Origin: Candidatus Nitrotoga sp. HW29
Lineage (GTDB): Bacteria; Pseudomonadota; Gammaproteobacteria; Burkholderiales; Gallionellaceae
Direction of reading: 5' to 3'
DNA: 64,000 nucleotides
NCBI RefSeq assembly: GCF_924101635.2
Contig: NZ_CAKMAA020000011.1
Location: 1-64,000 of the forward strand
This document shows, in pieces, positions 47,365 through 64,000 of this stretch. The position numbers and the translations under genes were made by a program. The stretch's first letter is position 1, and each line of letters starts with the position of its first letter. The notes beneath the pieces were generated by a model. The model was not told the DNA's origin. It made no database searches and was given only the letters and a program-made list of their open reading frames with translations.

Positions 47365-47901
47365 ATGTCTCAGCAAATTCAAACCATTAATACCTTAGTT
47401 TTGCCAGGTCAGGAGAGACCATTTTTTCGCATATGTATGCAGCAAACGATATGTGAAAATGTGAGAGATTTATTTCGTTTTAAATTTCATGATTCGCCGC
47501 CCGAAGATCCCATTCACTGGGTGGCTTATTATGACAGTAAAGATTCGATTGCCCTTCCCGTATGTTATATCCATTTCTATGAATGGCAGGGTTGTTTACT
47601 ATGCGGCGGCGCTTGTGTTGATCAGCGTGTTCTCAAGAAAATGAGTTCAGATGAGCGCGCAAGTATGCGCGATGCTGGCGGCCCCTACTATTTGTCGTTG
47701 TCCACGGCATTTAACTACTTTCAGAACAAGACATTAGGGGTATTTGGCTACTGTGGTGATCCGTTATCAGAGCGCATCTCTCTCCGTGCCGGATTTCAAA
47801 AAACTCCTTTTAAATATGTGATTGCATGGTGGAGTTCAACGACCCAAGATACAAAAAAACTCGCTTTAATCGAAAAGGTGCGTGAACTGGGGCCGTTTTA
47901 A
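47365..47901 (+). CDS. Acyltransferase-like protein, copy 1 of a duplicated pair
   Basis: A 178-residue protein, same length as the one at 48927-49463 and clearly its paralogue: both have a GG.CV block, a FGYCGD motif (about residue 130), RAGF/RAGY and an identical style of end (ELGPF / EIGPF). The layout, with a central beta segment followed by the FGYCGD turn and a final strand, is like the GNAT N-acyltransferase fold, but no acetyl-CoA loop is conserved, so the function is only suggested. It is followed by a deacetylase gene 64 bases downstream. Confidence 0.6.
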   Translation: MSQQIQTINTLVLPGQERPFFRICMQQTICENVRDLFRFKFHDSPPEDPIHWVAYYDSKDSIALPVCYIHFYEWQGCLLCGGACVDQRVLKKMSSDERASMRDAGGPYYLSLSTAFNYFQNKTLGVFGYCGDPLSERISLRAGFQKTPFKYVIAWWSSTTQDTKKLALIEKVRELGPF

Positions 47902-47965
47902 TTGTGCCAACGATTATGGTAAATAGCCTTTCTAATGCTCACCACACCACTGGGTTGGTTCTCCC

Positions 47966-48757
47966 ATGACAGCACTGATCTTGACGTATTATTCAATGAA
48001 CATTGACGGCAATGAATACTCAAATAACGATCACGTTGCATTGAGTACGGATTTGCGCTTGCTTGCGGCGCTAGGCTGGACGATAACGCCATTGAGCACT
48101 ATTGTTGGTGCAGTCATTCATCGCAAATTGGATCCCGCCAACAAATGGGTTGCCATTACGTTTGACGACGGTTCATGGTTTGATTGGTACGACCTTGATC
48201 ACCCTACTCACGGACAGCAGAAGAGCATGGCAAACATTTTGCGTGATTTTTCCCAAAGGCATACCGGACGAAGCCAGCCTCCAATAGAAGCAACATCTTT
48301 CGTAATTGCATCACCACAAGCGCGTGCGCAACTCGAGGTCACGTGTATGGCGGGACACCGCTGGTGGAGTGATGAATGGTGGCCGCAAGCCCAACATGAA
48401 GGCGTGATTCGAATTCAAAATCATAGCTGGGATCATAATCACATCTCGTTAGATTCAACGGCTGTTTTGCATGAGAAAGGGCGATTTTCAGTCGTTTCAA
48501 CTTATCAAGAGGCTGATTTGGATTCGATATGCGGAGCGGCGACATCCACTATTTTTGCCTATCCATATGGTGAAACGTCTGACTTCCTGGTGCGCGAGTA
48601 TCTTCCTGGCCACATGTTAGAGCATCGCCTCACGGCGGCACTTACAACCAAACCGGAATACGTTACCAACGATTCTAACCGATGGCTAATTCCCCGTTTC
48701 GTATGTGGCTGCGATTGGAAGTCAACAGAAGATTTACGCACGATTTTGCAAAGGTAG
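47966..48757 (+). CDS. Polysaccharide deacetylase-like protein (NodB fold), copy 1
   Basis: A 263-residue protein of the carbohydrate esterase 4 type. ITFDDGSWFDW supplies the catalytic and metal-binding aspartates, NHSWDHNH the two metal-binding histidines, and FAYPYGETSDFLVREYLP the conserved arginine/proline region. CE4 enzymes remove acetyl groups from N-acetylated sugars. There is no signal peptide, so the substrate is probably a cytoplasmic precursor sugar or lipid-linked glycan (inference). Paralogue of 49620-50471. Confidence 0.8.
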   Translation: MTALILTYYSMNIDGNEYSNNDHVALSTDLRLLAALGWTITPLSTIVGAVIHRKLDPANKWVAITFDDGSWFDWYDLDHPTHGQQKSMANILRDFSQRHTGRSQPPIEATSFVIASPQARAQLEVTCMAGHRWWSDEWWPQAQHEGVIRIQNHSWDHNHISLDSTAVLHEKGRFSVVSTYQEADLDSICGAATSTIFAYPYGETSDFLVREYLPGHMLEHRLTAALTTKPEYVTNDSNRWLIPRFVCGCDWKSTEDLRTILQR

Positions 48758-48926
48758 CTAGGTTCAGCATGTGCTCGAAGAGTGGATGGGGCGCCGATGT
48801 GCGGGCGATTTAACCAAGTGGCTACAAAATTTCTGATTGTATAAAACCTGAAATACCCTTGAATCAGTCTCTTATGGTTTGTCATCATATAATGCCAATA
48901 AGCACCATACTCAAACAGGTTTTACT

Positions 48927-49463
48927 ATGAAAAGTTTCAACGAATCAATCTGCATTATCCGCACTGAATCAGCCGCTTTTTTTGCCGCCGATCTTTTTCT
49001 GGAAAGCTTTGGCGCGCCATTTCCGATCCCGCGTGATAATTGTGGCTTAGCGATTCCTACACCACCTGAAAACTGGAGACAATACGTCGCATTTTATCGA
49101 TGGGGCGACTTATATTTTGAACCAATAGGGTTCTGTAATTTCATCCGTTTTGGTGAGGTCTATTTGGAAGGGGGGATGTGTGTAAAAAAAGGTTTTTACC
49201 GTCGTTTGCCCAAGAGTCATTGGCACGAATGCAAAGGCCGGGGAGGAGTCGCACAAATTTTAATGGAAGAGGCATCAAAAGAGCTTAACGATTGCACCGC
49301 CTGGTTTGGCTACTGTGGAGACAAAATGGCTTATCTGGTTGATAAGCGTGCGGGATACGTAGATACGCATCACGAGCATTTGATCGTCAAATGGTTCGCC
49401 CCATCAAGCACAAAACAACAATATGAACTAATCAATTCAATCGCTGAAATTGGACCGTTCTAA
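48927..49463 (+). CDS. Acyltransferase-like protein, copy 2
   Basis: A 178-residue paralogue of the protein at 47365-47901, sharing the VYLEGGMCVKKGFYRRLP block, AWFGYCGDKMAY, DKRAGY and the terminal IAEIGPF. The ATG at MKSFNESIC was chosen because it matches the length of copy 1; the frame is open 16 codons upstream. Several cysteines are conserved between the copies. Function unknown. Confidence 0.6.
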   Translation: MKSFNESICIIRTESAAFFAADLFLESFGAPFPIPRDNCGLAIPTPPENWRQYVAFYRWGDLYFEPIGFCNFIRFGEVYLEGGMCVKKGFYRRLPKSHWHECKGRGGVAQILMEEASKELNDCTAWFGYCGDKMAYLVDKRAGYVDTHHEHLIVKWFAPSSTKQQYELINSIAEIGPF

Positions 49464-49619
49464 TCGCCACCGGCCAATTTCAAAAAATCAGTATTCGTGA
49501 CTGGTTATCAGAGATGAAAGCAAAATCAGTAAAAAGCTTCTTGCAGACTCGTGTGGTTTTGGCAATATTGCGATTGAATCCACCAGTACATTTATGGTGT
49601 TAATTGGGAATTACGAAAC

Positions 49620-50471
49620 ATGAAAGGAATCGTTTTAAGTTATCACTCGCACAACATTTTTGGAGAGAGATACGAAAACAATGATCACGTTGCTTTTTCA
49701 AAAGATCTGCAATTGATTACAGAGGCGGGGGGAGAGATTATTTCATTAATGTCGCTTGTTGCGAAGCTCCGCTGTGATCAGGCGCGGGAACGAGCCGAAA
49801 ATGATGAAAAAACTTATGTAGCACTTACCTTCGATGATGGTCCGGTGTTTGACTACAAAGACTTTATTCACCCGGTTCACGGTTATCAGCGAAGTTTTTA
49901 TAACGAAATGATGAAGTTTCAAGCTGAATACAATAGGAATGTCCAGCCGGAATTAAGTGCGACCAGCTTTGTAATTGCTTCTCCATCCGCGCGTCAAGCT
50001 CTGGCGCGCAGCCCGGAATGTGGTTATACGTTCCTGAATGAAGACTGGTTAGGTGATGACTGGTGGGAAAGCGCCTCTAAAACGGGGATGATTTCAATCG
50101 GAAATCACAGTTGGGATCATGTACATCCCGTTGTTCCGAATGTCGCGTTATCCTCAGAAATGCGTGGCAGCTTTCATGAAGTTGCAACATATGCTGATGC
50201 GAACGCTCAGATTCGCGACGCTTCGGCTTTAATTTCAAAGAAGACCAACGGACTGTCTGTTCCGTTATTTGCCTTTCCTTACGGTCACTACAACGATTAC
50301 CTCATAAAAGAATATTTGCCCAATCACATTAATGAGCATGGTTTGGCAGCTGCATTTTCAGCAGATGGCCGATATATAACAAATCAAGATAGTCTGTGGT
50401 GCCTGCCGCGATTTATTTGTGGGTTACATTGGAAATCGCCGGAAGACTTAATTGGCATTCTCAACGGATAG
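49620..50471 (+). CDS. Polysaccharide deacetylase-like protein (NodB fold), copy 2
   Basis: A 283-residue CE4-type protein with LTFDDGPVFDYKDF, ISIGNHSWDHVHP and FAFPYGHYNDYLIKEYLP. It shares long stretches with copy 1 (ENNDHVAFS, ATSFVIASP, LPRFICGLHWKSPEDL) at about half identity by eye. Again no signal peptide. The pair order, acyltransferase-like then deacetylase-like, repeats exactly that of the first copy. Confidence 0.8.
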   Translation: MKGIVLSYHSHNIFGERYENNDHVAFSKDLQLITEAGGEIISLMSLVAKLRCDQARERAENDEKTYVALTFDDGPVFDYKDFIHPVHGYQRSFYNEMMKFQAEYNRNVQPELSATSFVIASPSARQALARSPECGYTFLNEDWLGDDWWESASKTGMISIGNHSWDHVHPVVPNVALSSEMRGSFHEVATYADANAQIRDASALISKKTNGLSVPLFAFPYGHYNDYLIKEYLPNHINEHGLAAAFSADGRYITNQDSLWCLPRFICGLHWKSPEDLIGILNG

Positions 50472-52266: not shown

Positions 52267-54477
52267 ATGCATAAAAAAATTCTTAAGACATCAAAAATGC
52301 ATAAAAACCCCCAGCCAATTCCGATTGGAGTGTCTAATCATCCGGAAGTCATTTACCAGTTGGGATTGAAAGCGTTTAATTCAAAAAATTTCGAACAGGC
52401 AACAAATTATTTTAACCTGGCAATGCAGGCTGATTCAAGGCAGCCGCATTATTGGCTTGCTTTGGGCTTGGTCTCGCAGGCGCAAGGAAAGTTTGACCAA
52501 GCAGCAGGATATTTTTATAAGGCACTTGAACTGAATCCAAACTTTGCCCAAGCATATAATCAGCTGGGTACGCTGTATCAAATGAAAGGGAATTTCGATG
52601 ATGCGGCTGCTAATTTTAGCCTAGCGTTAAAAGTGCTTCCCAACTTCCCCCAAGCTTGTAATAACTTGGGAAGTGTATTTAAGTTACAGGGAAAAATTGA
52701 CGAGGCAATAGTTGCTTTTCTGGAAGCAATACGGTTAAAACCAGACTACGTGCTCGCTTACAACAATTTGGGCAGCGCATATCAATCGCAAGCAAGAGTA
52801 GAAGAGGCTGAGAGCTGTTACCGTAAAGCGATTGAACTTCAGCCGGATAATATTTATGCCTATTTTGGCTTGGGGCACGCCCTTATTGTGCAGTGGAAGA
52901 TGGAAGAGGCCGAGAAAATATTACGCCGGGCACTCTTGCTAGACCCGGATAATATTCAGGTGCTAAACAATTTGGCCTATGCTTTAAAGGAACAGAGCAA
53001 GCATGTCGAAGCGGCAACCTTCTATCAGCGTGCCTTGTCATTAAAGCCCAATGGCCTGAAGGCATTCATCGGTACCCACCTGGCGTTGCCCGCGATTTAT
53101 TCCAATACCACAGAGTGGTTCGCGGTGCGCAAACGTTACACAGAGGGGCTGAAGACTTTACGGGATAACACCGAAAATTTCCTTGAAATAGAAGCAAAAG
53201 AATTATTGTCAGGATTGAGCTGGACCAATTTTTACTTGGCATATCAAGGTCAGGATGATAAGTCTTTGCAAGTGGAATATGCACATTTTGTGGCGGATAT
53301 TCTTCGGGTTGCGGCGCCAGATTTAATGCAGCCCATAAAACAGGATCCCGCAGCCTGCCAACGACGTTTGTGCATTGGCTTCTTGTCGAGTTTTATGCGC
53401 GATTGCACCGTTGGGTCTTATTTTAAAAGCTGGGTTACCTCTCTTGACAAGGAAAAATTTGAAATTTATTGCTATTACATTGGGCATATACAGGATCAGG
53501 TAACCCAAGAGTTTGCCCGTGCGGCTGATCACTATAAACATCTTGTTGGCGACGTTGATCATATTGGCAGACAAGTTAAGAATGATCAGCTCGATATCTT
53601 GGTTTATCCAGAAGTTGGTATGGATCCGGGTGCATTGGTATTGGCTGCAATGCGCTTGGCGCCAATACAATGCGCTGCCTGGGGACATCCGGTAACCACC
53701 GGCCATGCCAATATAGATTATTTCTTTTCCAGTGCATTAATGGAGCCGGAAAATGCACAGACTCACTACAGTGAGCAATTGATTTTGCTGGAGGGAATTG
53801 GAACCTGCTATCTAAAACCGGTACTTCCTTCTCCCGCCAAGCGTTCAGATTTTTCATTGCCTGAAGAGCGTGTTCTTTATCTTTGCCCGCAATCGTTATA
53901 TAAAATTCACCCCGATAATGACAGGTTGATGTTGGAAATCCTGGCGCGGAATAAAAATGCTGTGCTGGTATTTTTTCAGGCCACTGATATGTCCATTACA
54001 CGGGCTTTCATGAAGCGGCTCGAAAGTGCATTGGATGAAAGCGGGATGGAGAAAAACGGTCAGATTAAAATTCTGCCACGCATGGCTCATGAAAATTATT
54101 TGCGGGTCAATATGCTGTGCGACGTCATGCTCGATACCCTGCATTGGTCCGGCGGCAATACCACGTTGGATGCGCTAGCCTGCGGTTTACCCGTGGTAAC
54201 GATGCCGGGAGAGTTCATGCGTGGTCGGCAAAGCTACGGGATGTTGAAGTATATGGGATTGAACGAACTGATCGCGCACGATCACAAGGATTATGTTGAG
54301 ATAGCAACCAGACTCGGCACAGACAGGGTTTGGCATCAACAAGTTGTGCAACAAATAACCGCAAGTAGCGATGCCATCTTTGCGGTGGAGACGCCCTTGC
54401 GTCAGATGGAACAATTTTTTGCCGCAGTATTAAATGCTCGGCCATCATGCCCACCTTCTGATAACAATTGTAATTAA
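52267..54477 (+). CDS. TPR protein with GT41 (SPINDLY/OGT-like) glycosyltransferase domain, first
   Basis: A 736-residue protein. Residues about 25-270 contain six or seven tetratricopeptide repeats (typical unit FDQAAGYFYKALELNPNFAQ); from about 365 comes a GT41 domain: LCIGFLSSFMRDCTVGSYF, YPEVGMD, WGHPVTTGHANIDYFFSS, CPQSLYKIHPDND (lysine matching the UDP-binding lysine of OGT), LDTLHWSGGNTTLDALACGL and GEFMRGRQSYGML. GT41 enzymes add sugars such as GlcNAc to Ser/Thr, or glucose to Asn, of cytoplasmic proteins. Where OGT has His498 (NHP) this protein has Cys (RDCTVG). The start may be ten codons later. It is followed after six bases by the next GT41 gene. Confidence 0.85.
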   Translation: MHKKILKTSKMHKNPQPIPIGVSNHPEVIYQLGLKAFNSKNFEQATNYFNLAMQADSRQPHYWLALGLVSQAQGKFDQAAGYFYKALELNPNFAQAYNQLGTLYQMKGNFDDAAANFSLALKVLPNFPQACNNLGSVFKLQGKIDEAIVAFLEAIRLKPDYVLAYNNLGSAYQSQARVEEAESCYRKAIELQPDNIYAYFGLGHALIVQWKMEEAEKILRRALLLDPDNIQVLNNLAYALKEQSKHVEAATFYQRALSLKPNGLKAFIGTHLALPAIYSNTTEWFAVRKRYTEGLKTLRDNTENFLEIEAKELLSGLSWTNFYLAYQGQDDKSLQVEYAHFVADILRVAAPDLMQPIKQDPAACQRRLCIGFLSSFMRDCTVGSYFKSWVTSLDKEKFEIYCYYIGHIQDQVTQEFARAADHYKHLVGDVDHIGRQVKNDQLDILVYPEVGMDPGALVLAAMRLAPIQCAAWGHPVTTGHANIDYFFSSALMEPENAQTHYSEQLILLEGIGTCYLKPVLPSPAKRSDFSLPEERVLYLCPQSLYKIHPDNDRLMLEILARNKNAVLVFFQATDMSITRAFMKRLESALDESGMEKNGQIKILPRMAHENYLRVNMLCDVMLDTLHWSGGNTTLDALACGLPVVTMPGEFMRGRQSYGMLKYMGLNELIAHDHKDYVEIATRLGTDRVWHQQVVQQITASSDAIFAVETPLRQMEQFFAAVLNARPSCPPSDNNCN

Positions 54478-54483
54478 TTATCC

Positions 54484-57400
54484 ATGAATAATCCCGACCA
54501 ATTGTTTCAACAGGCAGTGCAGCAGCATCAAGCAGGGCGACTAGTGGACGCTATGATGATCTACCGGCAAGTTCTGGCGGTACAATCCAGGCATCCGCAA
54601 TGTCATTACAATCTGGCACTGGCATTGCAATTTCTGAATCAAACCGATGCGGCAATTGCCAGCTATCAGCGCGCTATCGAAATCAATCCCGGTTTTGCCG
54701 AGGCACACAATAACCTGGGTAATATCTTTCAAAACCTGGATCGGCTGGAGGACGCCCGGCAGTCGTACAGCCGCGCTTTGGCAAGCAATTCCAGGCTGCC
54801 ACAGGCACAATTCAATCTAGGTTTGATCCTTAAAAAACAAAAACGATTCAGTCTGGCGGTGGAGCATTTTCAGGCGGCGATAGATATTGCGCCGGATTAT
54901 GAAGAGGCTTATGACAATCTCTGTTCACTACTGAAATTTCTCGACCGCACCGAGGAATGGCTGGATGCATTCAAGAAATTCGAGCGTCTGAATAACAAAA
55001 CCGACTGGTTTTTTGTTGCCGGACTTTCCGCCTGTCGCTACCTGGGCGATTTCAACCGCGAACAAAACTATCTGCACGCCTTGTCCGCGCATCCGCTCAC
55101 AGATGGCGACATTGGGGTGTTGGATAACATCTTAGGGATCGCACAGTATTTTGATCTGCCACAAGCGCAGCTACTGCGTTTGTACCACGCCTACAACCAG
55201 GCAGTGAAACGCCAACATTTTTCCGAATTTCCGCTCGTTTCTCCCTATCGGTCGCAACACACAAAACTGCGCATCGGTTATTTGTCGGCGGATTTTCGCG
55301 TACATGTGATGGGCAAGCTTATGATCGAAGTACTGGCCCGCCATGATCGCAGCCAGTTTGAATTGTATCTGTATTCCCTGGCGAGCCAGACTGATGCACT
55401 CACCACACAATTTTCCACGATCAGTGATAAGTTTGTTGATATACACACGCTGTCCGCGCGGCAAGCCGCCAAGATGATCGCCGAAGACGACCTCGATATA
55501 TTGGTCGATCTGTGCAACCACACCTCTTATTCCAATGCATTGATCCTCGCTTACAAACCGGCACGGGTGCAGATCACCCACCTCGGTGCCCACGGTGCTA
55601 TCGGCATGGATACGGTTGATTACAAGTTGACCGACCATTATGCCGACGTGCCGGGAAATGCGGCATATTTGATCGAAAAATTGTTACCGATGAAAGGCTG
55701 TCTCTTTCCCTTTCACCATGTTGAACCTGCTTCGGATATCCATTTAAGCCGGGCCGAATTAGGCATTGCCGAAAATGCAGTGGTGTTGGGCGTATTCGCC
55801 AACATAATGAAATTCAGCCCGCGTTCTTTACAGACCTGGGCGGCCATCTTGACGAGAAACGAACAGGCCGTGCTGGCCTTTTCGCCCCTGAAAGAAAATG
55901 AAAAAGCCAGTTATTTACGTCAAATTACCGCGGCCGGAATCGATCCGGCACGGGTGAAATTTATTCCCGCGGCAAAGGACGAGCAGTTTAACCGTGCACG
56001 TTATGCGCTGCTGGATATGGCCCTCGATACATTCCCCTACAGCGGTGGCGATACGACACTGGCAGCGCTGGATATGGGGGTGCCGGTGATTACATTGTGC
56101 GGCCAGCGCCATAGCGAACGCACGTCCTACAGTATTTTGATGAACCTCGGCGTGCCTGAAATAATCGCCCACAGCGAAGCCGAATATATCGATCTCGCTT
56201 GCCGTCTGGCGAGCGACACTGGCTGGCGCGGCACGGTGGTGGAAAAAATCCGGCGCGGTCTTGCCGATTCGCCGCTAGTTGACATGGACGCTTATACCCG
56301 GCATCTGGAGGACGCGTATCGAGATGCTATCGCCCAATGCCCCTTAAAAGATGCGATCGTAAACGACGATAATAAAGCGTTGTTCCAGAATGCCGTGCGG
56401 CAACATCAGGCCAACAACTTGATGGAAGCGGCAGACGGTTACCGGCACGTACTATTGCATGAGCCCGATCATGCTGCCGCCCTCTATTTATACGGCGTGC
56501 TACTGGAACAAGCCGGCCAGGAGGACGATGCCATCGTGCAATTGCAACGTGCCATTGCAGTTAGCCCGAGCTATCTTGATGCGCATCTGGCACTTGGCAA
56601 CCTTTATTTGAAGTTAGGGCAAATGGAGGATGCAGTCACCGGCTTTAACACGGCGCTGCAAGTTAAGCCCGGCCATTTTACAGCGCTGAACGGATTGGGC
56701 CGCGCCCTGACCGGGGCTGGCCATCTGCCACAAGCCGTCACGACCTTGCAGCAAGCGATCCAAAGTCAGCCCCAGGAATCGTCCGCGTATTTCAATCTGG
56801 GTGTGGCCTATCAAAAACAAGGGCTGCCAGACGCGGCAATGGCCGCTTATCATCGCGCACTGGCGCTGGAGCCGAACAACACCGAGGCATTATTCAACCT
56901 GGGCGTATTGTTCCAGCAGCAAGGCATGGCTGAACGCGCAGCTGCTTGCTATCAGCAAGTCCTGCGTATTGAGCCGGATCACACGTCGGCCTATTACCAT
57001 CTCGGCGATGTGTTGTTCGATGCCGGCAAAATCAATTCGTGGCTGGAAAATTTTAAACAGTTCCGACGCCACGCGCCGCCCTCTGCCATGCTCGCAGTGT
57101 ATGGTCTGCAAGCCTGCCAGTATCTGGGTGAAATCGAACAGCAACAGGCGTATCTGGACGACTTGCTGAGTGATGAATATGCGTTCCTCAATGCCGCCGA
57201 TGCGCTCGACCGGTTGGAGGAAATTCTCTATTTACTTTTGTTTTTTGACATTCCTCCAGAGCATCTGTTTGCCCTGTACCAGCGCTACAACCAATTGAGC
57301 AAGCAGACGTATACACCCCAATTGTCGCTGTCCGCGCGCGCTGCTGGCGGCAAGATCCGGCTGGGCTATTTGTCCGCCGACCTGCGCGATCACGTGATGG

Positions 57401-58449
57401 GGAAAATGATATATCAGGCTATTTCTCGCCATGACGCCGAACAATTTGAGGTGTACTGCTATTCGCTGTCAGCGCAGCAAGATGCGTGGACCGAGCGCTT
57501 CCGTGCTTGTAGCCATCGATTTGTCAGCATCGCAAATCTCGACGCACGCAGTGCGGCAAATCGCATTGCCGAAGATAATCTGGATATTCTGGTGGATCTG
57601 TCCACTCACACCAAAGATAGCCTGCCAGCGATTCTGGCGTACAAACCAGCGCGCCTGCAAATCACCCACATTGCCAGCGCCGGGGCAATGGGGCTGGATA
57701 GCATCGATTTCAAATTAACCGATCAATACGCCGACACTCCAGCAAATCAGGCGTATCTGCTGGAGCGCCTGCTGCCGATGCAGGGCTGTATATTTCCTTA
57801 TCGCCACATCGCACCGGCAAGCCAGCACAACTATCAGCGCACAAAACTTGGCATAAAAAAGAACGCTATCGTGCTGGGTGCTTTTGTGACCTTGATGAAG
57901 CTGAGCCCGCGCTGTCTTGCATTGTGGCGCCGGGTGCTGGAAGCGCTGCCGAACGCGGTACTCGCGTTCTCGCCGCCCAACCTTGAAGCTAAAGCCGGCT
58001 ATCTGCAACGGCTCAAGGCGGCTGGTATAGCAGCAACGCGTGTTGTCTTTATCCCACCCGGCAAGGATGACACTCATAACCAGGCACGCTATACCCTGGT
58101 TGACATGGTGCTGGACACACTGCCGTTTGGCGGTGTCAATGGCACGCTGGAAGCACTCGACATGGGCGTGCCGGTGATCACATTGCGCGGAGAACGACAT
58201 GGTGAACGTACCGGCTTCAGCATTCTGACGAACCTCGGCGTAACGGAAACGATTGCCAGCAACGAACAGGAGTTTATCGATATCGCCAAACGCCTCGCTA
58301 ACGATCAAACGTTCTACGCCAGTGTTAAGGATGCTATTCGGCGTGGTTTAGCCGACTCGCCGCTCGTCAACATGGATGATCATGCGCGTCATCTGGAAGA
58401 AGCCTATCGACAGGCGTTAATGCAGAAAGGCATCGTAACATCACGATGA
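54484..58449 (+). CDS. Double-module TPR-GT41 glycosyltransferase
   Basis: A 1321-residue protein made of two complete TPR-GT41 units. Unit 1: TPRs at about 5-160, GT41 at about 260-620 (LRIGYLSADFRVHVMGK, ILVDLCNHTSYSNALILAYK, FANIMKFSPRSL, LDTFPYSGGDTTLAALDMGV). Unit 2 restarts at about residue 626 with NKALFQNAVRQHQ, has longer TPRs to about 885 and GT41 from about 957 (IRLGYLSADLRDHVMGK, ILVDLSTHTKDSL, LMKLSPRCL, LDTLPFGGVNGTLEALDMGV). Both units keep the His (VHVMG, DHVMG) that corresponds to OGT His498 and the UDP-lysine. The two units resemble each other more than the flanking enzymes, so internal duplication is likely. Two catalytic domains could extend a glycan or serve two acceptor sites. 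Confidence 0.85.
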   Translation: MNNPDQLFQQAVQQHQAGRLVDAMMIYRQVLAVQSRHPQCHYNLALALQFLNQTDAAIASYQRAIEINPGFAEAHNNLGNIFQNLDRLEDARQSYSRALASNSRLPQAQFNLGLILKKQKRFSLAVEHFQAAIDIAPDYEEAYDNLCSLLKFLDRTEEWLDAFKKFERLNNKTDWFFVAGLSACRYLGDFNREQNYLHALSAHPLTDGDIGVLDNILGIAQYFDLPQAQLLRLYHAYNQAVKRQHFSEFPLVSPYRSQHTKLRIGYLSADFRVHVMGKLMIEVLARHDRSQFELYLYSLASQTDALTTQFSTISDKFVDIHTLSARQAAKMIAEDDLDILVDLCNHTSYSNALILAYKPARVQITHLGAHGAIGMDTVDYKLTDHYADVPGNAAYLIEKLLPMKGCLFPFHHVEPASDIHLSRAELGIAENAVVLGVFANIMKFSPRSLQTWAAILTRNEQAVLAFSPLKENEKASYLRQITAAGIDPARVKFIPAAKDEQFNRARYALLDMALDTFPYSGGDTTLAALDMGVPVITLCGQRHSERTSYSILMNLGVPEIIAHSEAEYIDLACRLASDTGWRGTVVEKIRRGLADSPLVDMDAYTRHLEDAYRDAIAQCPLKDAIVNDDNKALFQNAVRQHQANNLMEAADGYRHVLLHEPDHAAALYLYGVLLEQAGQEDDAIVQLQRAIAVSPSYLDAHLALGNLYLKLGQMEDAVTGFNTALQVKPGHFTALNGLGRALTGAGHLPQAVTTLQQAIQSQPQESSAYFNLGVAYQKQGLPDAAMAAYHRALALEPNNTEALFNLGVLFQQQGMAERAAACYQQVLRIEPDHTSAYYHLGDVLFDAGKINSWLENFKQFRRHAPPSAMLAVYGLQACQYLGEIEQQQAYLDDLLSDEYAFLNAADALDRLEEILYLLLFFDIPPEHLFALYQRYNQLSKQTYTPQLSLSARAAGGKIRLGYLSADLRDHVMGKMIYQAISRHDAEQFEVYCYSLSAQQDAWTERFRACSHRFVSIANLDARSAANRIAEDNLDILVDLSTHTKDSLPAILAYKPARLQITHIASAGAMGLDSIDFKLTDQYADTPANQAYLLERLLPMQGCIFPYRHIAPASQHNYQRTKLGIKKNAIVLGAFVTLMKLSPRCLALWRRVLEALPNAVLAFSPPNLEAKAGYLQRLKAAGIAATRVVFIPPGKDDTHNQARYTLVDMVLDTLPFGGVNGTLEALDMGVPVITLRGERHGERTGFSILTNLGVTETIASNEQEFIDIAKRLANDQTFYASVKDAIRRGLADSPLVNMDDHARHLEEAYRQALMQKGIVTSR

Positions 58450-58464
58450 ATATCCTATGCAGCC

Positions 58465-60603
58465 ATGACTGATAGCGTTGATTTACTTAATCAGGCTGCC
58501 GCACGGGCGCGACAAGCCGGTAATTTGGAGCAGGCACTAGCGTATCTTGATCAAGCCATCGCTCTCAGCCCGCAAGCGTCGCGCAATCATTTTCTGCGCG
58601 GACTCACACTGGAAGACCTGCATCGGCCAGACGAGGCCATCGCCAGCCTGCAAAATGCAATTCGCATGAAACCGGACTATGCCGAGGCCTACAACAATAT
58701 CGGCATTATCCTGCATGACCAAAAACGCTTCGAGCAAGCCGCTGCAAATTTCCGCGATGCAATCCATCACAAGCCGGATTATCCCGGCGCTTATAACAAC
58801 CTGGGTACCTCGCTTCGGGCGCTGGGTGACTTCGCTGGCGCTCAGCCGCAGTTTGCACAGGCCGTTCTGCTAAAACCGGATTACGCGCTGGCCCATTACA
58901 ATCTGGGTGTCACTTACCTGGATATAAAACTACTCAATCAGGCAGAAGCCAGTTTCAGCCATGTGCTGCGCTTGAAACCGGATCACGCTCAGGCCTACAC
59001 CTGTCTCGGTTCTGTTCAGCTTCAACTGGGCAAGCTCGATGAAGCGGAAGCCAGTTTCATCCATGCCGCGCAAATGAAACCGGGCAAGAATGGCGCGGAG
59101 CTCAACCAACTTGCCCGCGTGTTCTGGGAACAAGGCCGCATCGAACAAACGCTTGCGGCCTATCGGCAAGCACAAACGCTGAATCCGCATGAACTGAAAT
59201 CGGCTCTCGGTGTCTTGCTGTCATTGCCCGCTGTATACCGTAATCAGATTGATTTGCTGGAAGCACGACAGCGATTCACTGATGGCCTGAAAAGCCTGCA
59301 CGCAAATATCCCGAACTTTATTTCTCACAATCCACCTGAAAAGCTATTGGATGAACTGCGCTGGAGTAATTTTTACTTGGCCTACCAAGGCCTTGATGAT
59401 AAGAATCTACAAACAGATTATGCGCATTTCGTGGCGGCCATGCTGGAGAAAATCGCACCGCAATTCATGCAACCGCGCGCGAAAAAAAATGCAGCGGGAC
59501 GCCGCTTGCGCATTGGTTATCTGTCCAGCTTTTTCAGAAATTGCACGGTCGGGATGTATTTTCGCAGCTGGATCACGAAACTCGATCGTGAACAATTTGA
59601 AATTTTTGTCTATCATACCCGTCAGGAAACAGATGCTGTCACTCGGGAAATTGTCGACACTTGTGACCATTTTCGCCACCTTGTCGCGGGCCCTATTTCA
59701 CCAGATCGTATTGCCGCATCCGTGCTGGCGGATGACCTGGATATCCTGGTTTACCCCGAGTTGGGCATGGATAACTCCAGTTTCCTATTGGCTGCCATGC
59801 GACTGGCACGGGTACAATGCGCCGGTTGGGGACACCCTGTGACGAGCGGCCACAAAAATATCGACTACTATTTTTCCAGCGCCGCAATGGAGCCCGACAA
59901 CGCCGCGCTCCATTATTCAGAAAAATTGATATTGCTCGAGGGGCTAGGCACTTATTACAGCAAGCCTGTGCTGCCCACACCGGCGCGCCGTGCCGACTTT
60001 GGGTTGCCGGAAGGTAAAACGCTGTATCTATGCCCGCAATCACTATTCAAAATTCACCCGGACAATGATGCCCTACTGGCGAATATTCTTGAGCGCGACC
60101 CGAATGGCGTCATCGTGCTGTTTGCCGGCCGCCATCCCAACATTACCAACGTCTTTTTTGCGCGGCTGGCACAGACCCTACACGCACGCGGTCTGGCGCT
60201 GCAAGGACACGGTATTATTCTGCCTTCAATGACACATGACGATTATTTACGCGTCAATATGCTGTGTGATGTAATGCTTGATACCCTGCATTGGTCTGGC
60301 GGCAACACAACCCTGGACGCGCTCGCCTGCGGTTTACCCGTGGTAACGTTGCCGGGAGAGTTCATGCGTGGTCGGCAAAGCTATGGAATGCTGAAATGCA
60401 TGAAGTTAGATGAACTTATCGCTAAAAACAAGGATGACTATAGTGAGATCGCCATCAAGATCGGCACAGACAGTGCATGGCGCCAGCAAGTTGTGCAACG
60501 CATCATTGCCAATAGTAATAACATCTTCAATATGGAAAAGTCATTACGTCAAATGGAATCGTTTTATCATTCTGAATTCAACGTGCCATATAGCGGTCAG
60601 TAG
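58465..60603 (+). CDS. TPR protein with GT41 glycosyltransferase domain, third
   Basis: A 712-residue protein closely related to the one at 52267-54477 throughout: seven or so TPRs at about 10-240, then GT41 from about 345 with LRIGYLSSFFRNCTVGMYF, YPELGMDNSS, WGHPVTSGHKNIDYYFSS, CPQSLFKIHPDND and LDTLHWSGGNTTLDALACGL. It too has Cys where OGT has His498. A 59-base stretch (60325-60383) differs at a single base from 54178-54236. It starts 15 bases after the double-module gene, so the three are one operon. Confidence 0.85.
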   Translation: MTDSVDLLNQAAARARQAGNLEQALAYLDQAIALSPQASRNHFLRGLTLEDLHRPDEAIASLQNAIRMKPDYAEAYNNIGIILHDQKRFEQAAANFRDAIHHKPDYPGAYNNLGTSLRALGDFAGAQPQFAQAVLLKPDYALAHYNLGVTYLDIKLLNQAEASFSHVLRLKPDHAQAYTCLGSVQLQLGKLDEAEASFIHAAQMKPGKNGAELNQLARVFWEQGRIEQTLAAYRQAQTLNPHELKSALGVLLSLPAVYRNQIDLLEARQRFTDGLKSLHANIPNFISHNPPEKLLDELRWSNFYLAYQGLDDKNLQTDYAHFVAAMLEKIAPQFMQPRAKKNAAGRRLRIGYLSSFFRNCTVGMYFRSWITKLDREQFEIFVYHTRQETDAVTREIVDTCDHFRHLVAGPISPDRIAASVLADDLDILVYPELGMDNSSFLLAAMRLARVQCAGWGHPVTSGHKNIDYYFSSAAMEPDNAALHYSEKLILLEGLGTYYSKPVLPTPARRADFGLPEGKTLYLCPQSLFKIHPDNDALLANILERDPNGVIVLFAGRHPNITNVFFARLAQTLHARGLALQGHGIILPSMTHDDYLRVNMLCDVMLDTLHWSGGNTTLDALACGLPVVTLPGEFMRGRQSYGMLKCMKLDELIAKNKDDYSEIAIKIGTDSAWRQQVVQRIIANSNNIFNMEKSLRQMESFYHSEFNVPYSGQ

Positions 60604-60634
60604 CCATATCCCGGTTGATACGAGGCCCAATAAC

Positions 60635-61405
60635 ATGATTTCAATTATTATTTGCAGCATCACTCCGGAAAAATTTGCGCTCGTCTCGAAAAACTATACA
60701 GAGCTGTTGGGGAATACGCCGTTTGAAATCATCGGCATCCATGACGCGCAGTCGCTATGTGAAGGCTATAACCGTGGCATCAATCAAAGCCGGGGCGATA
60801 TCCTGATTTTTTGCCATGATGACATCGAGATCATTTCTCCCGATTTTTACCCGCTTTTATGCCAATATCTTCAAGTTTATGACGTGGTCGGCTGTGCCGG
60901 TACAAACCATTTGGTCGCCAGTAACTGGGGGTTCGCGGGAGACCCCTACATACACGGCACGGTGATTTACCCGTCGACCGCTGATGTATGGCCCGGCAAT
61001 CACTTTGACCTGGGGATGTGGGGCGGAGTCAGTTCGGTGGTCGTTGAAGGGATTCAAGCTTTGGACGGGTTTTTCTTTGCCGTGAATCGACGGGTGGTCA
61101 ATGAAATACGCTTCGATGAACAAAATTTCGATGGCTTCCATATCTATGACACCGATTTTACCTTCGCCGCCTATTTAGCCGGATTCAAATTGGCAGTCTG
61201 CAAGGATATTTTAATAGCCCACCAATCGCGCGGAAATTATTGTGAAAAGTTCGATGCATTTAGTGTCAGGTTTATGGAAAAGTATCAAGGCCGCCTGCCC
61301 ATTCAAGAATGCAATAACCGCCAAGTGGCATTAGCGAAAAACCTTGATCGTGCACAAATACTCCGCATCCGTGACAGTTTTCGGGTCGCTAACGGGATAA
61401 TTTAG
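60635..61405 (+). CDS. Family 2 glycosyltransferase
   Basis: A 256-residue GT2-like protein: MISIIICSITPEKFALVSKN opens a Rossmann-type sugar-nucleotide domain, CHDDIEIISPDF carries the DxD-like metal motif, and LDGFFFAVNRRVVNEIRFDE and FDGFHIYDTDFTFAAYLAGFK are acceptor-side blocks of the Glyco_tranf_2_5 (StrF-like) group. The sugar is unknown. GAGG nine bases before the ATG sets the start 32 bases after the last GT41 gene, hence same operon. The stop codon overlaps that of the convergent Wzz-like gene by three to four bases. Confidence 0.8.
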   Translation: MISIIICSITPEKFALVSKNYTELLGNTPFEIIGIHDAQSLCEGYNRGINQSRGDILIFCHDDIEIISPDFYPLLCQYLQVYDVVGCAGTNHLVASNWGFAGDPYIHGTVIYPSTADVWPGNHFDLGMWGGVSSVVVEGIQALDGFFFAVNRRVVNEIRFDEQNFDGFHIYDTDFTFAAYLAGFKLAVCKDILIAHQSRGNYCEKFDAFSVRFMEKYQGRLPIQECNNRQVALAKNLDRAQILRIRDSFRVANGII

Positions 61406-63465
61406 GCGGTCGGCCGCACTGCCGACATTAAGCGTTCTACCTGCTCTAGTCCCAGTCGTTTTCCGGCGGGTGCCATGGCGCTGTAGATGGCCGCCTGCGC
61501 TGTGCTCATTTTCCCGACTGCGCGGGCGAGGTCGGCCATGCGAATGCCCTGACGGGCCAGAAAGGCAGCAAAGGTATGGCGCAGTGCATCAGGCGTAACT
61601 TCAACAGGCTGATCGACGCCCGCGTCATGTGCCGCGTAAAGTAGTTCTGTTGTCAAATCATTGAGCGCAAGCGGTTTAGCATTTGCATCGCCGAGCAATG
61701 GCTGCGCATCGCCTGCCGGGGTGATTTTAAAAGTGTTAACGATCACTTCATGCAAGGCGCTATCCAGTGGAATGTCGCGTGCTGTCGTTCGCGCATCGTC
61801 GCTTTCCTGGCCGCTTGCAATATGTAATGTCCGTACTTCCGTATTGACGTCGCTGCCGCGTAGTGCGACCGCCTCTTCCGGGCTGACGCCCCTGAGCAGC
61901 AGGTGAGTAAACAGCAACACGGGAGGCGTGGCATTGGTCAGGATGCCTGCCAGTTCTTCTTGCAGCAGTTCGCGTGAGTGAATTGCGGACGGCAACATCG
62001 ACATGCGCCCGTCATATTCCACCGCAAGCGGCTTTCGGTGCGCCAGGGCAGCCACATTGTCCTGGCCCGATTCATATCCCAAACCATAGTTCGGATTGCC
62101 CGGGTAAGGTGGCGGGTGAGGGGATGGCTGGGACACAATCCACGTGGGCGGCGCGTCCACCCGGTTGAACAGCTCAACTACCCACATCACCAGCAGTGCC
62201 AGTAAAAAGGCGCCGCCCAGCACGATGGCCGCATCACGTGTGTACTGCGGTTGCCACGGCTCACGCGGTATGAAAGCGGGTTCCACCACCCGCACTGATG
62301 GCCTGCGCGCGGCCTCACCCGCCTCCTGGCGCGCCTTGCGCTGGGTTGCGTCGCGCAGCAGTGCCTCCAACGGTGCAAGCTCATCACGCATGATGCGAAA
62401 ATCATTGAAGTGTGCGGCAAACTGCTGCAGCGCACCACGGTTGCCTGCTGCCTGCTGTGCCATGCGGGCAACGGTGTCCCGTGCGGCATTGACCTCGTCA
62501 CGCGCGTCGGCCAACGCCGAACTTTGATCCGACCGCGCCACTTGCCCACTGCTTTGCCGCTGATTGGCAACCTGACGCTCCAGCTCGGCCAGGCGATTTC
62601 TGACTGCACGTGCGTGCGGATCCATCGCCAAATAGGCAGACGTATAGGCACGGCTCAGTTCACTGAGCTCTTCACGGGCCTGGGATGCGCGCTGCTCCAG
62701 ATTATCCAGTGTGGCATTGGGCCGTACCGGCGCTGCCATGGGCCTGCCACCGGCAGCGGATTCAGCCATCGCACGCAGTTTGCCTTCGGCAATCGCCAGT
62801 TTTTCCTGAGCTTTGTTGAGTGCTTCGGTTTGACCCTTGATTCGGCCCAAAGCTTCATTTTCTTCGCGCTCGAAGGAGACGATGTTATGGCGCAAGCGAA
62901 AATCTTCCATCTGGCGGCGCTGGGTTTGAACTTTTTGGGTAAGTTGGGTGACTTCGTCATTGATCTGGGTTAATGAGCTGCCCGAGGTTTTTGCATAGGC
63001 ATCGTTCAACTGGCCAGTGTAGGCAACGACCAATTCATTGACCAGCATGGCGGCAAGTGCAGCATCGGGGCCGCGTGATGATACCTCGACCACGTTCGTA
63101 CCTTCGGCCACCGTGGCCTGCAGCCCCGTTTGCAAGGCAGCCACCGGATCCGCTCCTAATCGGGAAGCGGTGTCACGTTGTGCGCCGGACATTTTTTCCA
63201 GAACCGCTTTAACCAACGGGCGGCTGGTCAATACTTGCAGCTCATTCAAGAGCGAGCGCGGCACGTTGGCGCCTTGCGTGCCGCCGGTGGATACAGCCGC
63301 TTCAACTTGAACCGCACCGGGATTGATCTGAACCCGCGTGCTGGCCAGGTAGATTGCGGGACGTGAGTAGCTGTACAACAGACCGATGGCGGCAAGTATT
63401 AAAAACGTGCCTGAAAAAACAAGAAATTTGCGTCGGTTGGCGCGCTGTGTGGGAGAAGAAAACAT
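61402..63465 (-). CDS. Wzz/GumC-like polysaccharide chain-length protein fused to a degenerate tyrosine-recombinase domain
   Basis: A 687-residue protein. Residues about 12-35 are the first membrane helix (FLVFSGTFLILAAIGLLY) followed by the Wzz motif YLASTRVQINPG; 40-400 are a periplasmic coiled-coil-rich part; a second helix spans about 411-433 (IVLGGAFLLALLVMWVVELF). Then, where GumC-type proteins may carry a tyrosine kinase, comes a Pro-rich linker and, from about 490, a tyrosine-recombinase-like domain: THLLLRGVSPEEAVALRGSD (Arg525), TPDALRHTFAAFLARQGIRM (Asp626 instead of His, Arg629), VGK (Lys652 instead of His) and IYSAMAP (Tyr661). The catalytic lysine of the beta-hairpin seems absent. 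So strand cleavage is unlikely; a binding or regulatory role is possible. AAAGG eight bases before the ATG supports the start. Confidence 0.82.
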   Translation of the reverse strand: MFSSPTQRANRRKFLVFSGTFLILAAIGLLYSYSRPAIYLASTRVQINPGAVQVEAAVSTGGTQGANVPRSLLNELQVLTSRPLVKAVLEKMSGAQRDTASRLGADPVAALQTGLQATVAEGTNVVEVSSRGPDAALAAMLVNELVVAYTGQLNDAYAKTSGSSLTQINDEVTQLTQKVQTQRRQMEDFRLRHNIVSFEREENEALGRIKGQTEALNKAQEKLAIAEGKLRAMAESAAGGRPMAAPVRPNATLDNLEQRASQAREELSELSRAYTSAYLAMDPHARAVRNRLAELERQVANQRQSSGQVARSDQSSALADARDEVNAARDTVARMAQQAAGNRGALQQFAAHFNDFRIMRDELAPLEALLRDATQRKARQEAGEAARRPSVRVVEPAFIPREPWQPQYTRDAAIVLGGAFLLALLVMWVVELFNRVDAPPTWIVSQPSPHPPPYPGNPNYGLGYESGQDNVAALAHRKPLAVEYDGRMSMLPSAIHSRELLQEELAGILTNATPPVLLFTHLLLRGVSPEEAVALRGSDVNTEVRTLHIASGQESDDARTTARDIPLDSALHEVIVNTFKITPAGDAQPLLGDANAKPLALNDLTTELLYAAHDAGVDQPVEVTPDALRHTFAAFLARQGIRMADLARAVGKMSTAQAAIYSAMAPAGKRLGLEQVERLMSAVRPTA

Positions 63466-64000
63466 GGCCGAAACCTTTCTTACAGCGGCTGTTCAAAGAC
63501 TCAAATCAAGCTGACTTTGAAGTTAGAGGATACCCAATTCATAGAAGGATGCGCTGGTATATCGGGAAAATAAATGTACTTTTCCATATGCACTGAATGT
63601 ATCGGAAAGCAATTTGATCGTCAACTTGACCTGCAAATTACCGAAACTCACCAGATTTGTGCCTAACGAGTGGCAAAAAGTGTGGGCTAGCGAACGATCA
63701 CCCGAACCACCCCGTCGTTTCCTTGCGTTTAGGATTGGTGAACACCGTGTGGAACAAAATTTTTTAATGATAGAAAAAAACGCGCACCACATTGCATGCA
63801 CGTTTAACCGGAAGTAGTGATCTAAACGAGGTTAGTAAATAAGGTGTTCGTACGTATTTTAAATTCAAGAATACCTGGGCCGTATGTGCAACGACAGTAT
63901 GGAAATAAGCGCTCCCTATACCTGGGTTGCAAATGTAAATACTTGGTGTAGCTGACTAACTTTTCTTCATCCAATCACAAAAGGTGACGGGTAGCACGTG
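63466..64000. other. Region upstream of the Wzz-like gene
   Basis: No convincing gene. Short open frames overlap on opposite strands (67 codons plus, 92 minus) without ribosome-binding sites or recognisable domains; one of them might be a decayed fragment. The promoter of the Wzz-like gene should lie at the left end. No repeat or terminator was identified. Confidence 0.45.

Follow-up and report, generated by a model that had tools for sequence, protein, structure and literature searches.

A polysaccharide co-polymerase fused to an apparently inactivated tyrosine recombinase domain in Candidatus Nitrotoga and other members of its class

A gene of Candidatus Nitrotoga joins, in one reading frame, a predicted chain-length regulator of the polysaccharide co-polymerase (PCP) kind to a domain that by sequence profile descends from the tyrosine recombinases, and the same fusion recurs in other genera, families and orders. 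We hold with moderate confidence that the product is a PCP-2-type co-polymerase whose cytoplasmic recombinase domain lost both catalysis and basic character early, and was kept for protein interaction. Below we describe the gene and its domains, the state of the former active site, the spread and context of the fusion, and the readings of its function that we weighed against one another.

Domain layout of the fusion protein

The gene lies on the minus strand at positions 61402–63465 of the window (the whole stretch of 64,000 nucleotides analysed), and its single unbroken frame encodes 687 aa from an ATG, the coordinates including the stop codon. The initial annotation had proposed just such a frame joining a PCP to a recombinase-like domain, and this was borne out. 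Since the gene converges on a plus-strand glycosyltransferase gene that ends at 61405, the stop codons of the two genes overlap.

From its N terminus (all coordinates on the minus strand), the protein begins with a predicted membrane helix (residues 5–33, 63367–63453), recognizable as a hydrophobic stretch in the sequence and in a low-confidence full-length AF2 model. A periplasmic, Wzz/GumC-like PCP region follows (residues 34–405, 62251–63366), delimited by a TIGR03007 match, a weak PF02706 match and helices of the AF2 model. The second predicted membrane helix (residues 406–437, 62155–62250) likewise comes from the low-confidence model and falls in a Pro-containing stretch, whose P403 and P406 are invariant in 10 of 10 alignment rows. 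Next comes a variable, Pro-rich and probably cytoplasmic linker with alignment gaps (residues 438–497, 61975–62154), such that about 60 residues separate the second helix from the putative pseudo-recombinase domain at the C terminus (hereafter the C-domain; residues 498–687, 61405–61974).

In the PCP part, the NCBIfam model TIGR03007, which describes XrtA-type chain-length proteins, matched residues 16–434 (E 1.5e-23) at 82.8 bits against a cut-off of 278.85, and Pfam’s PF02706 (Wzz) matched residues 12–91 (E 0.0048) at 17.6 bits, below its cut-off of 25.5. The fusion thus resembles the chain-length PCP of XrtA systems in its PCP architecture; unlike that protein, which has a separate BY-kinase (TIGR03018), it scores below the model’s cut-off and carries an extra C-terminal domain. 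Two predicted membrane helices around a long helical region, together with the PCP profile match, mark it as a protein of predicted PCP-2 type. By its profile matches it appears to belong neither to the TIGR03007 family nor to PCP-2a, the type with a fused P-loop tyrosine kinase: the Pfam and NCBIfam matches of the window protein included no kinase domain, and no BY-kinase domain was found among the 23 Pfam families matched by 10 family members. TIGR01005, a model that includes a kinase part, was matched somewhere along its length by 3 of these 10 members (among the 25 of 43 NCBIfam families listed), and no Tyr-rich tail was seen in the sequence of the fusion protein.

In the second half, PF00589 matched residues 526–664 (E 3.3e-8) at 34.0 bits, above the curated Pfam cut-off of 27.1, by which the window’s domain classifies as a member of that family; the profile search had been proposed in the initial annotation. 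An NCBIfam model of Xer recombinases matched residues 517–664 at E 3.8e-9, below the model’s own curated cut-off, and all 10 members of a 10-row family alignment (A2) matched PF00589 at E<=1, which speaks against a chance resemblance. The N-terminal core-binding domain, i.e., the DNA clamp, gave no match in the window protein (Pfam at E<=10, NCBIfam at E<=1).

Both AF2 predictions, of the C-domain and of the full-length protein, were built on five close sequences, 83–89% identical to the window’s. The C-domain model (pLDDT 42, pTM 0.36) was too low in confidence to be of use. When it was nevertheless submitted to Foldseek, the best match was an integrase, but at E 0.16 and TM 0.25, and ranks 1, 2, 4 and 6 for this low-confidence query were tyrosine recombinases or related topoisomerases, a suggestive result at most. 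The full-length model (mean pLDDT 51.9, pTM 0.25) placed helices at residues 5–33 and 406–437 and long helices between residues 135 and 387. The recombinase fold that we assign to the C-domain rests on sequence profiles. A profile of 18 C-domains compared with solved structures matched a XerC-like chain (4a8e) at E 6.7e-14, XerA at 2.4e-10 and XerD at 2.8e-6, and hhalign related the family to recombinases with a probability of 98.2%. Compared by sequence with solved structures, the PCP part returned a single, irrelevant match (E 0.062).

The former active site, charge and selection

We set the catalytic columns by aligning the family with 13 tyrosine recombinases from three of the genomes that carry the fusion. 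At the six columns (Arg I, Lys, His II, Arg II, His/Trp III and Tyr), the window protein has S, G, D, R, K and Y. Ser528 (61882–61884) stands at the Arg I position, Asp626 (61588–61590) at His II, Arg629 (61579–61581) at Arg II, which is retained, Lys652 (61510–61512) at His/Trp III and Tyr661 (61483–61485) at the nucleophile position, all on the minus strand. The last four had been read correctly from the sequence at the outset, as had the missing hairpin Lys, whose column holds G. Arg525, which had been taken for the catalytic Arg I, falls three residues short of the Arg I column defined by the 13 aligned recombinases.

Across the family, Arg I was found in 0 of 25 members versus 12 of 12 recombinases, and the counts for His II were identical. 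The Arg II column holds Arg in 22 members and His in 3, against Arg in 12 of 12 recombinases; the third site is His in only 3 of the 25, whereas the recombinases have His (11) or Trp (1); and the nucleophile column holds Tyr in 21, Leu in 3 and Cys in 1, compared with Tyr in all 12 recombinases. The hairpin Lys is absent from 17 of 18 members by one alignment; a second alignment, with gaps at this column in 6 of its 25 members, shows it in 2. Three members, all of one family (f6), lack both Arg II and Tyr and have retained the fusion. Judged from these columns, the second half of the protein is a dead recombinase, its active site lost. The family also has conserved residues of its own that differ from those of recombinases, for example Gln639, found in all 17 non-redundant members, and Pro666, found in 16 of them, which point to a putative new function.

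The C-domain has also departed from recombinases in charge. Its pI is 4.8–5.9 in 17 of 18 members, the exception (L059) being basic with a pI of 9.03, and the last 190 residues of seven further members have a pI of 4.9–5.6. The equivalent regions of 13 recombinases encoded by three of the fusion genomes have a pI of 8.5–10.2, one of them (L119) having been cut too wide. Among 7 genes of the window’s genus (21 pairs; ratios of means), dN/dS was 0.176 for the C-domain, 0.147 for the PCP part and 0.276 for the linker (residues 437–497). The C-domain is under purifying selection, and it has been retained, though apparently not for DNA. The C-domain is like XerA, XerC, XerD and the integron integrases (PF00589) in that profiles recognize it as a C-terminal domain of catalytic type, and unlike them in having no core-binding match, an active site that appears lost and a mostly acidic character.

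A Xer-like C-terminal His-Pro motif, considered as a sign of helix swapping, was set aside, with Pro at the Xer column in just 4 of 25 members. Of note, 16 of the 17 non-redundant members share another Pro, at the column of residue 681 of the window's protein, which itself lacks it.

Distribution, ancestry and genomic context

A search for the same fusion in related genomes, likewise suggested at the outset, recovered it from 25 distinct genomes. Seven of them are among the 19 of the window’s genus (Candidatus Nitrotoga-like), and the other 18 belong to different genera, families and orders within the class. Both halves are nearly whole in 22 of the 25; in the remaining 3, namely G134 (at a contig end), G1062 and G1060, the N-terminal part is unmatched and the match begins late within the PCP part. 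Given the strict cut-off and the few candidates scored per genome, more distant members may have been overlooked. In a neighbourhood sample of 61 genomes, 15 matched at E<=0.001, 8 of them over nearly the full length. These eight are the seven genus genomes, including the window’s own (the other six at 86–95% identity), and G051, which belongs to a different family and is 30% identical to the window’s fusion. Where records of the close relatives carry a name, it is Candidatus Nitrotoga or that of an uncultured member of the Nitrosomonadales or Betaproteobacteria. A sample of 300 genomes of the order gave 13 matches at E<=1e-10, comprising 8 fusions and 5 matches to the PCP side only, the latter reaching query residues 437–491. 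At E<=1e-30, a profile of A2 picked out 10 genomes among 399 of the order, 6 among 369 of the class, 7 among 36 of the order to which G518 belongs and 2 among 299 of the phylum, both of the last already being among the known fusions.

We compared the histories of the two halves in separate trees. In the PCP-half tree, some rows of which were flagged by the program for long branches and unusual composition, one branch parted 18 fusions from 19 ordinary PCPs of the same genomes (support 100/99). In the C-domain tree, one branch parted the 18 fusions from 12 recombinases, with the same support of 100/99. Within the fusions the two trees had 11 of 15 splits in common. They disagreed over the long-branched rows L067, L068 and L069 and over weakly supported splits within the genus; the strongest clash was between splits supported at 94 in the PCP tree and 81 in the C-domain tree. 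The halves have thus largely been inherited together. Since each half, moreover, stands apart from the ordinary PCPs or real recombinases, one old fusion event is likely, although these data fall short of proving a single event.

Among 72,556 plasmid and 50,697 phage records, none matched the fusion at E<=1e-5, and a plasmid or phage origin was rejected; PHROG integrase matches reflect the PF00589 ancestry. A role in defence was rejected as well: in PADLOC, the PCP part drew only weak JetC matches (E 0.0016 to 0.0054) and the C-domain drew no match at E<=0.01. No RNA families were found at 60000–64000. No description of a PCP-recombinase fusion appeared among the titles and opening lines of abstracts listed in searches of an open-access library, and the terms integrase and recombinase are absent from a 2006 PEP-CTERM paper (PMC1569441).

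The most widespread neighbour families spanned 4 of 18 context windows, all within the window’s genus. Across genera, no neighbour family occurred in more than 3 of the 18 contexts, and so no operon links the fusion gene to a given polysaccharide; gene neighbourhood was therefore rejected as a guide to function. The 20 flanking proteins scanned include PEP carboxylase, DNA polymerase I, DNA ligase, a SNF2 helicase, malate synthase, a Band-7 protein and one flippase-like polysaccharide protein, the last downstream of the fusion in G334. In 4 of the 6 context windows from the genus, the fusion gene is accompanied by relatives of the glycosyltransferase genes at 52267–61405, either adjoining it or sitting up to ~7 kb off.

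An exosortase was present in 20 of 20 fusion genomes tested (of the 25), each with a best E of 5.5e-56 or better, against a background of 111 of 300 genomes in the order and 6 of the 12 fusion-less genomes of the window’s genus. The 111 include every one of the 8 fusion genomes in the order sample, giving Fisher’s p of 3e-4 by genome and 0.024 by genus, values that ignore relatedness and assume that both order samples are the same 300 genomes. This co-occurrence suggests that the sugar polymer may belong to the kind of extracellular matrix made with exosortase systems. A narrower tie to the long-form (XrtA-like) exosortase (8 of 8 versus at least 85 of 300, p 3.2e-5) was not relied on, the genomes being related.

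In addition, 19 of 20 fusion genomes contain a separate PCP above the TIGR03007 cut-off, making the fusion an additional PCP. The true TIGR03007 gene of the window’s genome is found on a different contig, within an exosortase cluster and beside a kinase gene, and encodes 512 aa without an extra domain; 9 of 10 proteins scanned in that cluster match XrtA/PEP-CTERM families, including a tyrosine autokinase, exosortase A and an export protein. As this ordinary XrtA-type PCP has a separate kinase gene, the C-domain of the fusion sits at the kinase position without necessarily displacing a kinase. The initial annotation had entertained a repurposed fold that replaces the kinase; the repurposed fold agrees with our best reading, and the replacement is to be read with care.

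Candidate functions of the C-domain

PCP-2 proteins have a cytoplasmic tyrosine kinase as their partner, either fused to them or encoded separately, and the current model of their action has the kinase drive assembly and disassembly (PMC12004946). Kinase domains form a ring in the Wzc octamer (parts of PMC12004946 and PMC8285477). Like Wzc, a PCP-2a protein, the fusion has a large and presumably cytoplasmic C-terminal domain after the second membrane helix (for Wzc, parts of PMC12004946); unlike Wzc’s P-loop kinase, this domain is of the unrelated tyrosine-recombinase type. A closer parallel in logic comes from Myxococcus xanthus, in which the PCP EpsV acts with EcpK, a kinase-like protein without catalytic residues that was proposed to be a scaffold on the basis of experiments and modelling (also from parts of PMC12004946). 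There too a PCP-2 protein has a cytoplasmic module devoid of catalytic residues, but EcpK is separate and derived from a kinase, whereas the dead enzyme here is fused and apparently derived from a recombinase.

Considering that the active site appears lost and yet the domain has been kept in distantly related bacterial groups, it is probably now a protein scaffold, and we infer that a kinase-independent scaffold on a PCP-2-type protein is the most likely role. The C-domain would lie at the cytoplasmic face, below the membrane helices, where it may assemble the PCP ring or polymerase partners, or keep them in register, without tyrosine phosphorylation, much as is proposed for EpsV and EcpK. The cytoplasmic scaffold would then be a built-in part of the PCP, following the logic of EcpK with an unrelated dead enzyme. 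A bolder version would make the C-domain a ring former, because XerH subunits assemble cyclically, each inserting its C-terminal helix into a neighbour (parts of PMC5241119). The fusion would then represent a third kind of PCP cytoplasmic module, in which a former recombinase with a head-to-tail swap provides a kinase-ring-like geometry from an unrelated fold. We offer this version tentatively and regard it as doubtful.

The retention of Tyr in 21 and of Arg II in 22 of the 25 members counts against the scaffold reading, since a mere scaffold gives no reason for it. With the remaining site largely gone, these two residues could form an anion pocket, and the domain might be a sensor that gates the PCP, with a small anion or nucleotide bound in the old active site; the three members of one family that kept the fusion without either residue argue against this, and we find it unlikely. 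The persistence of Arg II also fits a membrane-anchored module that would sense chromosomal DNA or tether it below the polysaccharide machinery, a role raised in the initial annotation, as do the PF00589 ancestry, the one basic member (L059) and the example of the yeast DNA-binding protein Ndc10, which is akin to tyrosine recombinases, a relationship that Perriches and Singleton reportedly described in 2012. DNA binding is, however, hard to reconcile with a domain that is acidic in 17 of 18 members where 13 recombinases are basic, that has no clamp-domain match and that has lost the active-site Arg I and His II in all 25, and we consider this role quite improbable.

Alternatively, the domain could be a partner or decoy for XerC/XerD, docking with real recombinases and coupling division to polymer export. 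The family profile matches Xer proteins, XerH subunits exchange C-terminal helices (parts of PMC5241119), and each of the 3 fusion genomes searched encodes PF00589 proteins; so do 13 of 14 control genomes, however, and co-occurrence therefore lends this reading no support, and it strikes us as very improbable. That the protein is an active site-specific recombinase anchored in the membrane would suit Tyr661 and Arg629 of the window, but with Arg I and His II absent from all 25 members and the hairpin Lys from 17 of 18, we give this idea next to no credence. Just as negligible is the chance of a decaying pseudogene or of two genes fused in assembly or sequencing. Only the odd architecture would suggest it, whereas 25 genomes carry the fusion in matched frames without internal stops, which excludes the assembly or sequencing error contemplated at the outset, and the dN/dS of the C-domain (0.176) is not that of a decaying sequence.

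Taken together, these observations favour the kinase-independent scaffold, and its interest would lie in what it offers to the study of PCPs. The way in which these proteins control polymer length is still debated. A PCP that has a dead recombinase domain at the kinase position and occurs in several families and orders would be a natural experiment on this question: it would offer a comparison with the same kind of membrane machine built on an unrelated cytoplasmic fold and working without phosphorylation. To our knowledge, it would also be unusual for a bacterial tyrosine recombinase to have been given a role in which DNA binding apparently plays no part.

Gene neighborhood of the fusion

The fusion gene (-) and a glycosyltransferase gene (+) converge in the window, and their stop codons, TAA and TAG, respectively, overlap at 61402-61405, whereas in G008, another fusion genome of the genus, ~1 kb separates the two. 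At 52267-60603 (+) lie three adjacent genes, each encoding TPR repeats and Glyco_transf_41 (O-GlcNAc-transferase-like) by Pfam. The 1321-aa product of the middle gene carries several Glyco_transf_41 stretches by Pfam, and seems to contain two tandem TPR-transferase units.

At 47365-50471 (+), a small protein followed by a polysaccharide deacetylase is encoded twice, in pairs that look alike (47365-47901 and 47966-48757; 48879-49463 and 49620-50471); neither small protein has a Pfam match. A Pfam scan at E<=1e-5 likewise returned zero matches for a 989-aa protein encoded at 44315-47284 (+).

A basic C-terminal domain

The C-terminal domain of the G141 fusion (L059:9231-11246, +) is basic, with a pI of 9.03, unlike those of the other 17 fusions compared.

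Exosortases of the genus

On a contig other than that of the fusion gene, the window's genome (G000) carries an XrtA/PEP-CTERM exopolysaccharide cluster (L100, contig C90) with an ordinary PCP, a tyrosine autokinase and exosortase A.

In the fusion genomes of the genus (G000, G006-G008, G010, G014 and G015), the best exosortase frame has a length of 534-535 aa. When the fusion-less genomes with an exosortase were compared (G001, G003, G009, G011, G013 and G017), the frame measured 556-558 aa in five of the six and 314 aa in the sixth. These frame lengths hint that the genus has two XrtA variants.
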